In this document: positions 8,049 through 36,149 of the stretch, in pieces
Layout of the letters: each line of letters opens with the position of its first letter
Position numbering within the stretch: position 1 is the stretch's first letter
IMG/VR virus record: IMGVR_UViG_3300003322_000882
Span: 1 to 37,864 of that record
DNA: 37,864 nt
Strand: one strand, 5' to 3'
From: a virus
Notes under the pieces: generated by a model
What the model was told of the DNA's origin: nothing
Databases searched by the model: none
The model's input: only the letters and a program-made list of their open reading frames with translations
Program-made: the position numbers and the translations under genes

Positions 8049-8323
8049 CAGACTCCCTCTGCCTCGCAGCGTCGACGCAACGGCGCCCATTCGATGTCGC
8101 GCACGCCCAGCAATGCGTAGATATACGGCTCGGGGTCGAACTCCGCGCGTGCGCGGATCCCCAACCAGCCTTCGCTATCGCGCGCCACAAGCATCACAGG
8201 GGCTGAAAGTTCTTCTTGCAGCTGCAGGAGCAGGCCGCTGGCTCGGGGTTCGGAAAGCGCGCGTCTCTCCACCAACACTACCGCCACGCGCTCGTCGCAC
8301 AGGCGTTGGATCGAATACATCAT
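8048..8323 (-). CDS. cI-operon protein A, paralogue of its neighbour, 91 aa
   Basis: ATG 8323 overlaps the cI stop as TGATG, so translation is coupled to the repressor. The product starts MMYSIQRLCDERVAVVLVER and shares with the next gene the order: beta strand VAVxxVE, Leu-rich helix, PVxLVAxD, then (D/E)(L/I)EW near the C-terminus. A longer acidic/aromatic insert (FDPEPYIYALLGV) is specific to this copy. An upstream in-frame start near 8383 is inside cI and not needed. Function unknown; candidates are repressor modulation or an immunity/exclusion role. Confidence 0.72.
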   Translation of the reverse strand: MMYSIQRLCDERVAVVLVERRALSEPRASGLLLQLQEELSAPVMLVARDSEGWLGIRARAEFDPEPYIYALLGVRDIEWAPLRRRCEAEGV

Positions 8324-9033
8324 CAAAACCGCTCGCTTTCCTTCCGCACGACGCGGCCAATGATCTTCGTGCTTTCGTCGCACGTCCTCCTGTAGTAGCG
8401 ACGCTGGTCCGGATTATCGGACGTCAGCCACCACTGACCGGCGTCGCGTGTGAGGCGTTTCACCACCGGCTCTCCCTCATAGTTGATCGCATATACAGCC
8501 CCGTCGACCAGCTTTTGATCCGCCGTGTTCACGACGACCAGGTCGCCCTCGTAAAAGGTCGGTTCCATACTCTCACCGCGCACCATGATGGCGATCAGCT
8601 TGCTGCGGTCGTACCCATTGCGCTCGATCCAGTCCGTCGGAACCGCAGCAGTCGTGCCGTCGAACGGCTCGGGTTCGATCTCGAACCCGCTGATACCGGC
8701 AGTGAGCCGCAAGCGCACCTTGGGGATGAGGGTAAATCGCGGGTCACCCTGTCCGGCTTCCTCGACACGCATATAGGACCCGGCCTTCAATCCAACGAGC
8801 GCGTCCTGCGGCGCCGACAAATCGCGTTCGCGCAGCTCGGCCACGGTCACGCCGAAATAGTCCGCCAGCGGCTGCAGCGTCTTCGTCCGCGGATCGCTGC
8901 TCTCGCCTGTCTGGATGCGATGGATGGTCGGCTGCGGCACCCCAGTGACGCGCTGCAGTTCATACGGGTTCGTTTTCCTCTGGGCCATCAGCCACTCGAG
9001 GTTCTTTTGAACTAGGGAAACAGGATTGCTCAT
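8323..9033 (-). CDS. cI: CI-type phage repressor, S24/LexA-like peptidase, 236 aa
   Basis: Residues 1-65 form an XRE helix-turn-helix (PYELQRVTGVPQPTIHRIQT). The C-terminal half is a LexA/UmuD-type S24 self-cleavage domain with nucleophile Ser155 in GESMEP and general base Lys192 in VVKRL, 37 residues apart as in LexA. A cleavable Ala-Gly is likely at 112-113 (LTAGIS). RecA-stimulated autocleavage should therefore trigger induction. I start at ATG 9033, where homology begins; an in-frame ATG at 9060 would place the OR3 operator inside the gene. The ribosome site is weak (GCAGG touching the ATG), so the message may be nearly leaderless, as for lambda cI from its maintenance promoter. Confidence 0.92.
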   Translation of the reverse strand: MSNPVSLVQKNLEWLMAQRKTNPYELQRVTGVPQPTIHRIQTGESSDPRTKTLQPLADYFGVTVAELRERDLSAPQDALVGLKAGSYMRVEEAGQGDPRFTLIPKVRLRLTAGISGFEIEPEPFDGTTAAVPTDWIERNGYDRSKLIAIMVRGESMEPTFYEGDLVVVNTADQKLVDGAVYAINYEGEPVVKRLTRDAGQWWLTSDNPDQRRYYRRTCDESTKIIGRVVRKESERF

Positions 9034-9042
9034 CCTGCAAAT

Positions 9043-9110
9043 ATGCGTCAACGCATACATAATCGCAATTCCTTATACGGTTTCGCATTGACACCGATAC
9101 GCTTTCGTAT
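9043..9110. promoter_or_regulatory. Right operator cluster OR1-OR3
   Basis: Three inverted repeats match the left operator: OR1 9097-9110 (ATACG-CTTT-CGTAT, perfect) in the spacer of the rightward promoter, OR2 9075-9088 (ATACG-GTTT-CGCAT) touching its -35 by one base, and OR3 9043-9056 (ATGCG-TCAA-CGCAT, perfect) just upstream of the cI start. Centre spacings are 22 and 32 bp. OR3 is placed where Cro or excess CI could shut off cI. A clear -35/-10 for the maintenance promoter is not obvious. Confidence 0.82.
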
Positions 9111-32339: not shown

Positions 32340-32768
32340 ATGAGCGAACCCCTCACCACCGGCGCCGGGGCCGCGGCCCTGAAATTCTTCGGCGCCACGG
32401 TGCTCGCCAGCGCGGCCGCCACGGCGCTGGGCTTCCTTTTCCTCTGGCCCAAAACCCTGCGCGAGGCGTTCGTCCGCTTCGCGAGCGCCCTCTTCTGCAG
32501 CTTCACCTTGGGCCCGGCGCTCGCGTTCGCGGCACGCGCGCAGTGGCCCGGCATGTTCGCTTCGGCGCAGGACCTCGGCCAGCTCTACGGCGATCCTCAA
32601 GCCGGAGTGCTGATCGCGGCCGCGCCGTTCCTCGTGTTCGCCGCACTGCCCGCGTGGTGGCTGTTTGGCTGGTTTTACCGCTGGGTCGATAACCGCCGCG
32701 ACAAGGACCTGGGCGAGGTGCTGCAGGACGGCGCTGCGGCCATCAAGGCCGCGAAGGAGATGATGTGA
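32340..32768 (+). CDS. Holin candidate, 142 aa, three transmembrane helices
   Basis: ATG 32340 is chosen; an ATG at 32325 would add five residues. Both have weak ribosome sites, which may suit dual-start holin timing. Three hydrophobic helices (LKFFGATVLASAAATALGFL; FASALFCSFTLGPALAFAAR; VLIAAAPFLVFAALPAWWLF) are followed by a charged cytoplasmic tail (RWVDNRRDKDLGEVLQDG). It stands directly before the endolysin, coupled by TGATG. This topology fits class I holins. Confidence 0.78.
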   Translation: MSEPLTTGAGAAALKFFGATVLASAAATALGFLFLWPKTLREAFVRFASALFCSFTLGPALAFAARAQWPGMFASAQDLGQLYGDPQAGVLIAAAPFLVFAALPAWWLFGWFYRWVDNRRDKDLGEVLQDGAAAIKAAKEMM

Positions 32769-33223
32769 TGCCCCCGAGCGCTTTCATCGGCATGCTGGCC
32801 CAGGCCGCGCAGGACTGCCAGCGCAAGACCGGAATCCCGGCCTCGATCACCCTGGCCCAGGCCGCGCTCGAATCCTCGTGGGGCGCGCGCGCGATCGGCA
32901 ACAACCTGTTCGGCATCAAGGCGGACAAGTCGTGGACCGGCCCGACCGTCAGCTTCGCGACGACCGAGCACCTGGACGGCAAGGATGTCGGCCTCGTCGA
33001 CAAGTTCCGCCGCTACGACAGCTGGCTGGCCAGCATGGTCGACCACGCGCAGTTCCTCCTGAAGAACCCGCGCTACGCGAAGTGCTTCAAGCAGGTCGAC
33101 GGCGCTGGCTGGGCGCGCGAGCTGCAGGCGGCCGGCTACGCCACGGACCCGGATTACGCGAAGAAGCTGATCGACATCATGCGCGGCCGGAACCTGGCCT
33201 TCTACGACCAGGTCCACTCATGA
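32768..33223 (+). CDS. Endolysin, glucosaminidase (GH73/FlgJ-like), 151 aa
   Basis: The sequence SITLAQAALESSWGARAIGN with catalytic Glu35 and NLFGIKADKSW is the GH73 signature, followed by FRRYDSWLASMVDHAQFLLK. The enzyme would cleave the glycan strands of peptidoglycan. No signal peptide is present, so it depends on the holin for access. Coupled to the holin (TGATG) and to Rz (ATGA). Confidence 0.87.
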   Translation: MPPSAFIGMLAQAAQDCQRKTGIPASITLAQAALESSWGARAIGNNLFGIKADKSWTGPTVSFATTEHLDGKDVGLVDKFRRYDSWLASMVDHAQFLLKNPRYAKCFKQVDGAGWARELQAAGYATDPDYAKKLIDIMRGRNLAFYDQVHS

Positions 33224-33729
33224 GCGCGCTGGAACGCCTGCTGGTAGCCGTCGTGCTGGCCGTGCTGCTCGTCGCCGGCGCGTGGATCGGTCTGCGCCAC
33301 TACGGCACCGAGCGGTACGACGCCGGGTATGCGGCTGCCGTCGCCGCCGGCAAGGAAGCGCGCAACAGCGCCGAGACCGCCCATCTCGCCATCGAATCGG
33401 GCCTCCGGGCCCAGTTGCTGGACCGCGACACTGCGGCATTTCGAAAGGAACAGGAATATGCATCGAACCTTGCTGATGCTCAGCGCCGTGTGCGCGCTGG
33501 CGATGACCGGTTGCGCTGCCCAGCGGCCAGCCCCGTACAGCCCGCCTCGGCGGCCGCAGATCGACCCGCTGCCGGCGCGCCTGCAGCTGACGGAGGCGGA
33601 CCGGACCTTGTGCCGGAGGCTGCTGCTGACGTTCTCGGCCACGGAGCGGCAATTGCAGGCCTCGTGCGGCGATACGCCGAAGTCCTTGACGACTTCGAAG
33701 CCTGCCGGGCAGTGAACGCGAAGCCGTGA
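33220..33729 (+). CDS. Rz: Inner-membrane spanin (Rz), 169 aa
   Basis: ATG 33220 overlaps the endolysin stop. An N-terminal transmembrane anchor (LLVAVVLAVLLVAGAWIGL) is followed by a long periplasmic helix (GKEARNSAETAHLAIESGLR) and an Ala/Pro-rich region, the i-spanin pattern. The o-spanin is nested in another frame. Together they fuse the inner and outer membranes at the last step of lysis. Confidence 0.85.
   Translation: MSALERLLVAVVLAVLLVAGAWIGLRHYGTERYDAGYAAAVAAGKEARNSAETAHLAIESGLRAQLLDRDTAAFRKEQEYASNLADAQRRVRAGDDRLRCPAASPVQPASAAADRPAAGAPAADGGGPDLVPEAAADVLGHGAAIAGLVRRYAEVLDDFEACRAVNAKP
33458..33715 (+). CDS. Rz1: Outer-membrane spanin lipoprotein (Rz1), nested in Rz, 85 aa
   Basis: ATG 33458 with GGAACAGGAAT upstream lies in a different frame wholly inside Rz. 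The signal peptide MHRTLLMLSAVCALAMTGCA has lipobox AMTGC (Cys19). A Pro-rich segment (RPAPYSPPRRPQIDPLPARL) follows, typical of Rz1. The C-terminal part would bind the Rz helix in the periplasm. Confidence 0.87.
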   Translation: MHRTLLMLSAVCALAMTGCAAQRPAPYSPPRRPQIDPLPARLQLTEADRTLCRRLLLTFSATERQLQASCGDTPKSLTTSKPAGQ

Positions 33730-33869
33730 TGGATTTCCACGTCATCACACCGGCCGAGCAGCAGCTCGTCATGCAGACGACGGACGGGCGCGTGGTTCGC
33801 GTGCTGCCGGCGCCGTCGTCGTCGCTGCCGCCCGCCGCCGCGCCGGCTCAGCCAGCACCCGGCAGGTGA
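33729..33869 (+). CDS. Small protein after the spanins, 46 aa
   Basis: ATG 33729 overlaps the Rz stop (TGATG). The short product (MDFHVITPAEQQLVMQTTDG ...) has a beta-hairpin-like start and a Ser/Pro/Ala-rich tail. It is the last gene of the late operon. Its 3' part overlaps an opposite-strand gene. Function unknown. Confidence 0.55.
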   Translation: MDFHVITPAEQQLVMQTTDGRVVRVLPAPSSSLPPAAAPAQPAPGR

Positions 33870-34045: not shown

Positions 34046-34067
34046 ATACTGTACACGCATACAGTAT
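34046..34067. promoter_or_regulatory. imuA: LexA (SOS) box before imuA
   Basis: ATACTGT-N8-ACAGTAT: a 7-bp inverted repeat containing the exact CTGT-N8-ACAG LexA core (34049-34064) of gamma- and beta-proteobacteria. It ends 14 nt before the imuA ATG, with GAGG in between. Binding of host LexA would repress imuA until DNA damage. Confidence 0.9.
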
Positions 34068-34080
34068 TTTTGAGGCAACA

Positions 34081-34821
34081 ATGACAACACTCCCCGATCC
34101 CGAAGCGCTTCACCCGGCGCTGTGGCGAGCTTCCCAGCTGGCGCGCAGTCGCACGCGTTGCGTCGAGACGGGGTATCCGAGCCTATCGAACCAGCTGCCG
34201 GGCGGCGGCTGGCCGATGGGCACGTTGGTCGACCTGCTGCTCCAGCAGAACGGGATCGGGGAAATGCGCCTGCTCGCGCCCGCGCTGCGGACGGTGGCCG
34301 AGCGCCGCGTCGTGCTGCTGCAGCCACCGCACGCGCCGCAGGCAATCGCCCTGGCCGCGCTGGGCCTGCCACCGGAATCGATCCTGTGGATCCGCGCCGA
34401 GCGCACGGGCGACATGATGTGGGCAGCCGAGCAGGTGCTGCGCAGCGGGAGCTGCGGCGCCCTGCTGTTCTGGCCAGACCAAGTCGGCGCGGGCAGTGCG
34501 CGGTACCGGCCCGTGCGCGCCGACAACCTGCGGCGTCTGCACCTGGCCGCGCAGGCCGGCGAGACGCTGTTCTTCATGATGCGCCCGCTGGCGGCCGCCT
34601 CGGACGCGTCGCCCGCGCCGCTGCGCCTGAGCGTAAAGCCGGCGGCGGGCGGGATCGACATCGGCTTCGTGAAGCGGCAGGGCCCGGTGCGCGACGAGCT
34701 GCTGTTCCTGCCCATGCAAATCGGCCAGGCTCGACCGGTGCAGCCGCGGCGCGAAATGGTGCCGGAGCATGCGGACACCGTCATCGCAACCTCCGACGGG
34801 GCGGCGGTCACGGTGCTGTAA
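34081..34821 (+). CDS. imuA: ImuA-like translesion-synthesis accessory protein, 246 aa
   Basis: The sequence follows bacterial ImuA (SulA/RecA-like fold). It starts HPALWRASQLARSRTRCVET near residue 10, then TGYPSLSNQLPGGGWPMGTL, VVLLQPPHAPQAIALAALGL, SILWIRAERTGDMMWAAEQV and SGSCGALLFWPDQ, ending with PLRLSVKPAAGGIDIGFVKR. In bacteria imuA heads an SOS operon with imuB (inactive Y-family polymerase) and dnaE2 (error-prone polymerase), and ImuA bridges them with RecA. Here it is alone: the integrase region follows. It is driven by a perfect LexA box. Possible roles are recruiting or disturbing the host mutasome, or division inhibition. Confidence 0.87.
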   Translation: MTTLPDPEALHPALWRASQLARSRTRCVETGYPSLSNQLPGGGWPMGTLVDLLLQQNGIGEMRLLAPALRTVAERRVVLLQPPHAPQAIALAALGLPPESILWIRAERTGDMMWAAEQVLRSGSCGALLFWPDQVGAGSARYRPVRADNLRRLHLAAQAGETLFFMMRPLAAASDASPAPLRLSVKPAAGGIDIGFVKRQGPVRDELLFLPMQIGQARPVQPRREMVPEHADTVIATSDGAAVTVL

Positions 34822-34867
34822 AATGGTCAGGCACCGAACCACCACCCGGAAACCTGTTTCGGCATTT

Positions 34868-34882
34868 CGCGTAATTTACGCG
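34868..34882. repeat. Palindrome CGCGTAA-T-TTACGCG, left copy
   Basis: A 15-bp inverted repeat, whose 13-bp core GCGTAATTTACGC recurs exactly at 35066-35078, 197 bp away. Candidate arm-type site for integrase or excisionase, or an operator for int. Confidence 0.7.
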
Positions 34883-35061
34883 CGCCACCTCTAAGCTATT
34901 GATATTGCTGGGCTTCGGTTTCCGGCTCCGGGCACCACGATGCCCTCTACCAAATCCCCTCGTCTCGTATCTTTTCAATACAGATCAAGCACTTATGGCC
35001 AAACTCGGCCAGTTTTGAATTCAACCATTTATACCTTTCAACACCTAATTTCACGTAACCA

Positions 35062-35096
35062 TTACGCGTAATTTACGCCATAATTACGCGCGTAAT
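35062..35096. repeat. Palindrome cluster directly upstream of int
   Basis: The 13-bp core GCGTAATTTACGC (35066-35078) is followed at 35083-35096 by ATTACGC-GCGTAAT, a perfect 14-bp palindrome. It ends 21 nt before the int start codon, so a protein bound here would also control int expression. The Xis/AlpA-like protein encoded at the other end of int is an obvious candidate. Confidence 0.7.
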
Positions 35097-35117
35097 GTTG
35101 AGCATGGAGTGGGAAAG

Positions 35118-36149
35118 GTGGCATCGTTTTCGAAAGAAAAGACCGGTTGGCGGGTTCAGGTCGCGATACGGGGCGTGCGCGAATCGCGCACCTTCCCGAC
35201 CAAGGCCGAGGCCAGCACGTGGGCGGCTCAGCGCGAGACGGAGATCCGAACTGATAAAACGGCCGGCGTGCAACGCGGCCGCACCGTCGACGAGGCATTC
35301 CGGCGCTATGAGAAAGAGGTGTCCGTGCACAAGGCCGGCCACGAGAAAGAGGCGATCCGCCTAGCCGCGATCGGGCGCATGCTCATCGACGGCGTGCCCT
35401 TCAAGGACTGGAAGCTGCTCGATGTAACGCCAGAAGTTCTGGGGAAATGGCGCGACCAGCGGCTGACCGGCACCGAGGAAAAGGGGTTCGCCGACAAGGT
35501 GCTGGGCTCGTCCGTGAATCGGGACATGAATCTGCTGTCGCACGTCTTCAACAGTGCCGCCAAAGAGTGGAAGTGGATCGCGAAGTCGCCGACCACGGAC
35601 GTGCGCCGGCCAGCCGATCCACCATCGCGTGATCGCCTGTACAGCGAGGATGAGGTAGAGCGCCTCTGCGCCGCGCTGGGCATAGACGTCGACCAGGCCG
35701 AGCCCGTTGAAACTACCACGCAGCGCGTCGGGATCGCGTTTCTGTTTGCGATCGAGACTGCGATGCGCGCGGGGGAAATTTGTAGCTTGATGCCGGCGCA
35801 GATCGCCGGGCGCGTGGCGACGCTGCCAAAAACGAAAAACGGTACGAAGCGGGCTGTGCCGTTGTCGACGCGAGCGGCCGCGCTGCTGAAGCTGCTGCCC
35901 GAGCCAGAGGAAGGTGGGACCGTGTTCGGCGTCACATCCGCATCGCTCGATGCCCTCTTCCGCAAGGCACGCGAACGCGCCGGGATCGACGGGGCCACTT
36001 TCCACGACACCCGCCATCTTGCGATCACGCGTCTGGCGAAGAAGCTGCACGTGCTCGACCTCGCGCGGATGACGGGGCACCGGGACTTGAAGAAGTTGCA
36101 AATCTACTACAACGAATCTGCCGAGGAGATTGCGGCGCGGCTCGACTGA
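35118..36149 (+). CDS. int: Tyrosine integrase, 343 aa
   Basis: I chose GTG 35118 (GGAG 8 nt upstream, product MASFSKEKTGWRVQVAIRGV); a GTG at 35109 is possible. An N-terminal arm-binding beta domain (1-50) and a SAM-like core-binding domain (55-155) precede the catalytic domain. Its active-site residues are Arg217 (TAMRAGEI), Lys near 238-240, His296/Arg299 (FHDTRH), His321 (TGHRD) and Tyr330 or 331 (LQIYYN). It would insert the phage into the host chromosome. It is convergent with the Xis-like gene, with stops only 18 bp apart. Confidence 0.93.
   Translation: MASFSKEKTGWRVQVAIRGVRESRTFPTKAEASTWAAQRETEIRTDKTAGVQRGRTVDEAFRRYEKEVSVHKAGHEKEAIRLAAIGRMLIDGVPFKDWKLLDVTPEVLGKWRDQRLTGTEEKGFADKVLGSSVNRDMNLLSHVFNSAAKEWKWIAKSPTTDVRRPADPPSRDRLYSEDEVERLCAALGIDVDQAEPVETTTQRVGIAFLFAIETAMRAGEICSLMPAQIAGRVATLPKTKNGTKRAVPLSTRAAALLKLLPEPEEGGTVFGVTSASLDALFRKARERAGIDGATFHDTRHLAITRLAKKLHVLDLARMTGHRDLKKLQIYYNESAEEIAARLD

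Follow-up and report, generated by a model that had tools for sequence, protein, structure and literature searches.

Why would a temperate phage carry the gene for a single accessory subunit of the bacterial mutasome, directly behind a LexA box, without the genes of its partners? The question is raised by a temperate tailed phage whose sequence is the window analysed here, that is, 37,864 bases of one linear and possibly incomplete virus record (IMG/VR IMGVR_UViG_3300003322_000882). Terminase, portal and head genes lie at 15.8-21.8 kb, and an endolysin, an integrase, RecT and a CI-type repressor are also encoded. The gene of interest, imuA, stands in the order endolysin (32765..33223, plus strand; PHROG endolysin, E 8.6e-54), a probable Rz/Rz1 pair (33218-33730, assigned from position), imuA and tyrosine integrase (35109..36149, plus strand; PHROG integrase and PF00589). 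These gene positions bear out the original prediction that imuA occupies an accessory-gene site between lysis genes and int. Judging from relatives, attP probably lies in the interval between imuA and int (34822-35108).

The imuA reading frame (34081..34821, plus strand) is preceded by the ribosome-binding site GAGG (34072..34075, plus strand), begins with the ATG at 34081 and encodes 246 amino acids up to the stop codon ending at 34821. Its product matches the NCBIfam model NF033429 ImuA_translesion with 214.8 bits against a cut-off of 150 (E 8.5e-64), while searches of Pfam and PHROGs returned no family for it. An AlphaFold2 model built with 50 relatives has a mean pLDDT of 82 and a pTM of 0.76, the pLDDT falling below 70 from about residue 211 and below 50 at residues 235-246. 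When this model was searched with Foldseek, every listed match in the PDB was RecA (best E 1.9e-11, TMq 0.64), and in the viral structure library ImuA was absent among the best listed matches. The protein thus has a RecA fold, and it is without Walker A and B motifs. Because the RecA Walker A region GPESSGKTTL aligns to LQQ-NGIGEMRL in the phage protein, the latter is expected to lack ATPase activity, as ImuA1 proteins do; loss of both Walker motifs is part of the definition of ImuA1 and ImuA2 (PMC12926913). At the N-terminus, a helical part in the model (amino acids 7-22, 34099..34146, plus strand; HPxLWRAsQLAR) takes the position equivalent to RecA-NT in RecA, and its E8, H11, P12, L14, W15, A17, Q19 and L20 are at least 95% identical in phage and host ImuA.

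How is such a gene controlled? The LexA (SOS) box at 34046..34067, 13 nt before the imuA start codon, reads ATACTGT-ACACGCAT-ACAGTAT and has perfect 7-bp arms. Its exact core, TACTGT-N8-ACAGTA, occurs only once in the window, where 7e-5 occurrences are expected by chance under a first-order Markov model. A CTG-N10-CAG is present within 80 nt upstream of the start in 48/48 different phage-borne imuA genes and in all of the 78 host imuA genes tested. Among phages the arms of the box are nearly invariant and the spacer is variable, and host imuA-imuB has the identical box type at a roughly equal distance. From this pattern, phage imuA would be repressed by LexA in vivo. The original prediction also linked the gene to prophage induction through CI cleavage, and here too the window agrees: the CI-type repressor (8323..9060, minus strand; PHROG transcriptional repressor) has an S24 peptidase domain (PF00717), and its translation contains an Ala-Gly site (LTAG|ISG), a Ser in GESMEP and a Lys in VVKRL. 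It therefore bears the marks of a RecA-cleavable repressor, and SOS-coupled prophage induction is to be expected.

Is the gene really alone? In the 37.9-kb record, tblastn with ImuB and DnaE2 detected neither imuB nor dnaE2, so that the predicted orphan ImuA under a perfect LexA box is what the window holds. Two scans of IMG/VR gave 17 and 51 contigs encoding ImuA relatives, the 51 contigs representing 48 different ImuA proteins with the window's own included, and at least 47 related phages or prophages also carry imuA behind a LexA box. The original prediction had pointed to related prophages as the place to look for imuA without imuB, and the orphan state recurs there: both imuB and dnaE2 are missing from all 51 viral loci. 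A scan of 2.9 million viral contigs with an ImuB profile confirmed no ImuB relative. The possibility that host imuB or dnaE2 is hidden in these phages was therefore rejected, none having been found by tblastn or by the profile scan. Among the 50,697 phage records of INPHARED there was no match to phage ImuA; plasmids gave many matches, mostly below 60% identity. Of the features of an imuA-imuB-dnaE2 cassette, the locus has the LexA box and lacks the linked imuB or dnaE2 and the host-type tail, and it has those of an orphan mutasome subunit, namely a temperate phage, a single accessory subunit, a LexA box and no polymerase subunit. We thus place the phage gene in the ImuA family and see its role as that of an orphan mutasome subunit carried by a phage; it does not belong to an imuA-imuB-dnaE2 cassette.

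All the relatives except one distant pair (L143 and L145) group with the window's imuA. These two contigs, of 279 kb and 80 kb, encode a separate second orphan ImuA, which is 46-51% identical, has a LexA box and groups with Paraburkholderia ImuA; ParA, a ParB-like protein and an ATP-dependent DNA ligase are encoded around the L143 copy. We take these contigs to come from a plasmid or from a very large phage. A contig binned as Xanthobacteraceae (L073), possibly a misbinned mobile element, likewise has an orphan imuA of the phage type, its LexA box being of the beta/gamma-proteobacterial kind.

Beyond imuA, most of the related contigs have no detectable structural or lysis gene in common with the window phage. 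The next large gene downstream of imuA is a tyrosine integrase in 7 of the 10 contigs tested, and the DNA adjoining imuA contains tRNA-His, tRNA-Val or tRNA-Leu genes or their 3′ ends. From the differing backbones, the downstream integrase and the tRNA genes taken together, it follows that imuA is a shared accessory gene beside attachment sites of different specificity. It is also conceivable that such phages integrate into the host imuA locus, imuA serving as an att-repair copy, and this was rejected for these phages because imuA precedes att sites in tRNA-His, tRNA-Val, tRNA-Leu and partial tRNA ends. A DNA search for attB of the window phage in 62 genomes, made without a positive control, gave no match.

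Where did the phage gene come from? A careful tree was made of 68 proteins, leaving out long rows (L073, L143, L145 and others). In this tree, all 41 phage-type sequences, including the plasmid orphan L019 and the prophage-like copy L021 from a MAG, are on one side of a branch with a support of 100/96, apart from ImuA of the hosts that have imuA-imuB. In a quick tree including the long rows the support is 93, and L143 and L145 stand apart. Because the phage-type genes form one clade separate from host ImuA, phage-type imuA is an old phage lineage; recent capture from a host is rejected by the tree topology. The main new point of this analysis is this old phage-specific ImuA lineage, common to dozens of mostly unrelated prophages. 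Phage-type imuA is under strong purifying selection: among phages, dN/dS over residues 1-211 is 0.20 (core 0.196), and it is 0.13 in the window phage's own subclade. The C-terminal tail is relaxed, with a value of 0.64.

What, then, has been kept in this lineage and what has been altered? Phage and host ImuA are about 65-75% identical in the core. If a host-invariant position is defined as one conserved in at least 95% of hosts, the commonest phage residue equals the host residue at 82 of the 83 host-invariant positions within residues 1-211. The regions facing ImuB and RecA, on whose presence the original prediction depended, are retained. The ImuB-facing stretch (amino acids 99-131, 34375..34473, plus strand) was located by alignment to RecA 112-144, in which ImuA G126 corresponds to RecA D139, each in its own numbering. 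It appears roughly equivalent to the part of Mycobacterium smegmatis ImuA' that binds ImuB (G97-M144; PMC11791113). In this stretch all of the host-invariant residues (15/15) are kept as the commonest phage residue, and dN/dS among phages is 0.148, the lowest of the regions compared. Such retention together with the low dN/dS is the signature expected of an unchanged partner, and favours one.

Three places differ. Directly after the ImuB-facing stretch, at the position of RecA loop L1, a 10-residue insertion (amino acids 132-141, 34474..34503, plus strand) is evident from the phage-host alignment in 30 of 45 phage proteins and in none of 77 host proteins. At positions 100-101, Q-L of hosts is changed to S-[AVI] in most phages. 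In a low-scoring alignment these positions correspond to RecA 113-114, and 99-104 to RecA 112-117, a surface needed for activation of Pol V (PMC4374754). Finally, the C-terminal tail (amino acids 212-246, 34714..34818, plus strand) is variable and predicted to be disordered, with a phage-host identity of 0.15. Mycobacterial ImuA' no longer bound ImuB in the yeast two-hybrid assay once 40 residues had been removed from its C-terminus (PMC11791113). Does the loss of the host-type tail then mean that the phage protein no longer binds ImuB? In hosts, the final 70-76 nt of imuA overlap the start of imuB, and because the host tail codons overlap imuB in this way, tail loss was rejected as proof of lost ImuB binding. 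Its simplest explanation may instead be that the phage gene was freed from an overlap with imuB.

The possible partners of the phage protein are at hand in the presumptive hosts. Among 62 genomes of the Massilia group, ImuA is found in 60 and ImuB in 61. A phage-type orphan imuA is present in seven of them (G001, G005, G033, G041, G042, G052 and G064); G064 has two copies, and the copy of G042 is 5′-truncated. One more genome, G045, has a plasmid orphan imuA, and by their coordinates all eight carriers also possess a chromosomal imuA beside imuB. Co-occurrence with imuB was nevertheless rejected as evidence, because nearly all the Massilia genomes and relatives have imuAB and it is therefore uninformative. 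Of the cellular copies examined, five have tail tape-measure genes no more than 20 kb away, and one cellular copy is accompanied by an integrase 66% identical to that of the window phage. DnaE2 is present in all of the 22 cellular genomes searched. In Massilia and relatives (G001-G022), dnaE2 is usually not adjacent to imuA-imuB, being about 54 kb away in G005; therefore the cassette is split in hosts too. A second copy in G049 (L205) was considered as another orphan and rejected, as it is a full imuA-imuB-dnaE2 cassette. In Massilia sp. Root133 (L207 and L208), the native imuA is split by an insert of about 35 kb with the 8-bp repeat GCTGCTGT at its bounds, and a further imuA-imuB pair lies inside this insert, which resembles a transposon that disrupted the cassette and supplied another in its place.

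How might phage ImuA act? We propose, and give an even chance to, phage ImuA being an SOS-induced subunit that acts in trans on the host ImuB-DnaE2 mutasome. The lineage would be lysogenic-conversion cargo near the attachment site, encoding an ATPase-dead RecA homologue of class ImuA1. In a lysogen, host LexA would repress the prophage imuA; DNA damage would lift LexA, and phage ImuA would be made alongside host ImuB and DnaE2, would most likely take the place of ImuA in ImuA-ImuB-DnaE2 through contact with the RecA-NT motif of ImuB, and damage bypass would as a result be raised or redirected for both host and prophage DNA. In this scheme, ImuB binding, a gain in bypass or mutagenesis and a benefit to the phage are what we infer. 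For the phage, imuA on its own takes 0.74 kb, and a full cassette would take about 5 kb more. The original prediction left a choice of boosting, retargeting or poisoning the host mutasome; the comparative data favour use with host ImuB-DnaE2 without proving it, an unchanged partner being favoured by the sequence and boosting and blocking both being compatible with it. Some points speak against a mutasome subunit. The host already makes a LexA-controlled ImuA, so that it is hard to see what a second copy would add. The change at 100-101, the insertion at the L1 position and the lost tail, whose mycobacterial counterpart was needed for ImuB binding, are moreover differences of the kind expected if the partner or the affinity had changed.

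These same altered places are what other readings draw on. The insertion at the L1 position, with the conserved N-terminal helix and the RecA-like core that the phage protein keeps, would suit a modulator that binds RecA by its RecA-like oligomerisation surface, caps or remodels RecA filaments and thereby restrains recombination or tunes LexA and CI cleavage and the timing of induction. In a phage with a CI of the cleavable type, a RecA modulator made under LexA control would complete a feedback circuit, and Myxococcus ImuA is reported to bind RecA and to inhibit recombination (PMC11791113). The Myxococcus protein is, however, an ATP-hydrolysing ImuA3 (PMC12926913), whereas phage ImuA is without Walker motifs; moreover, the phage sequence has no positive sign of RecA contact, and the residues kept are those of ImuB-linked ImuA. 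We consider this modulator unlikely, though well worth keeping in mind. If the ImuB-facing core is kept while the tail, the L1-position loop and 100-101 differ, phage ImuA might also be a dominant-negative decoy, forming an inactive complex with ImuB that lowers host mutagenesis or frees RecA and the beta clamp in phage replication. Yet a decoy needs only a binding surface, and residues throughout 1-211 are strongly constrained; the insertion is missing from 15 of 45 phage proteins, and conservation of the host tail may simply reflect the overlapping imuB frame. In our view a decoy is quite improbable.

Division arrest, another branch of the original prediction, turned out to be its weakest. 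SulA is a RecA-fold relative, and a SulA-like inhibitor could hold septation during damage and induction; the NCBIfam SulA models do match weakly (E 1.8e-5), but their 24.6 bits against a cut-off of 150 (TIGR00623) and 22.7 against 162 are far below the 214.8 bits for ImuA, and the residues invariant in host ImuA are intact, with no drift to another family. We would be greatly surprised by such a function. There is hardly any room left for imuA being a passive hitchhiker or a recent host capture, transduced or decaying and without function. In favour of such an origin, the gene adjoins the attachment site, a place at which a phage can acquire host DNA; against it, the phage-type genes are one clade outside host ImuA (100/96) with a dN/dS of 0.13-0.20, the box is present in 48/48 and the backbones are many and different, and the attachment sites are in tRNA genes, not at imuA. 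A bolder idea, which we put forward tentatively and with some doubt, is that the ImuA lineage of Oxalobacteraceae phages was repurposed as an SOS modulator, rewiring how the host chooses among recombination, ImuB-DnaE2 mutagenesis and prophage induction instead of merely adding host ImuA; it draws on the lineage's own L1-position loop, the altered 100-101 knob and the free tail.

Are there precedents for a subunit of this kind? The closest is HumD of phage P1, which is LexA-controlled. It too is one accessory subunit belonging to a translesion polymerase of the host, and the phage carries it without the polymerase subunit. This UmuD'-like protein is reported to facilitate SOS mutagenesis (McLenigan 1999, as cited in PMC4713147 and PMC7092418). 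HumD differs in that it is unrelated to ImuA and belongs to the Pol V (UmuD'2C) system, whereas the target of phage ImuA would be ImuB-DnaE2; phage imuA, in addition, makes up an ImuA clade of its own that dozens of diverse phages have in common. The chromosomal imuA-imuB of the Massilia group, with its unlinked dnaE2, is alike in LexA box, box distance and invariant residues, but the phage gene has no imuB, another C-terminal tail, in most cases the loop insertion, and a clade of its own. Plasmid imuA-imuB-dnaE2 cassettes such as that of pRalta are also mobile, LexA-controlled mutasome genes, and a new host that receives imuABC on a plasmid mutates more (PMC4151985); they are full cassettes, while the phage has the smallest subunit only. 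Mycobacterial ImuA' (ImuA2) and Myxococcus ImuA (ImuA3) share with it the character of a RecA-fold partner of ImuB, but are other ImuA classes, each with its own ImuB, and that of Myxococcus keeps its ATPase motifs (PMC12926913). In the accessible portion of the open literature on imuA together with phage or prophage, we found no report of a phage-borne ImuA.

ImuA is the least understood subunit of the mutasome. Dozens of LexA-boxed ImuA proteins freed from linkage to imuB make its solo role testable, and the same set makes it testable whether the rate of induced mutation in a host is determined by its prophages. From our analysis it seems that the mutation machinery of the host is supplied or steered by lysogenic phages upon DNA damage; were phage ImuA active, the mere state of lysogeny would alter evolvability during such damage.

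Some minor observations are also to be described. A plasmid counterpart, an orphan imuA of the phage clade in Massilia putida (NZ_CP019036; L019, 5599-6702), is 64% identical, has no imuB and lies near a Tn3 transposase. Apart from being plasmid-borne, it differs in that the LexA box stands ahead of a small gene which itself comes before imuA, and therefore the small gene and imuA may form an SOS operon. In 18 loci of viruses or prophages, imuA is preceded at a distance of 0.25-2.9 kb by a PHROG 704 'DNA repair exonuclease' gene; these loci have numbers above L100, include L110, L113, L116, L119, L120, L121 and L198, and in some cases repeat the same contig. The exonuclease gene has no strict LexA box in the loci checked, where the box is at imuA only. 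In the early region of the window itself, 1477-2565 on the minus strand encodes a protein with a PAPS-reductase domain.
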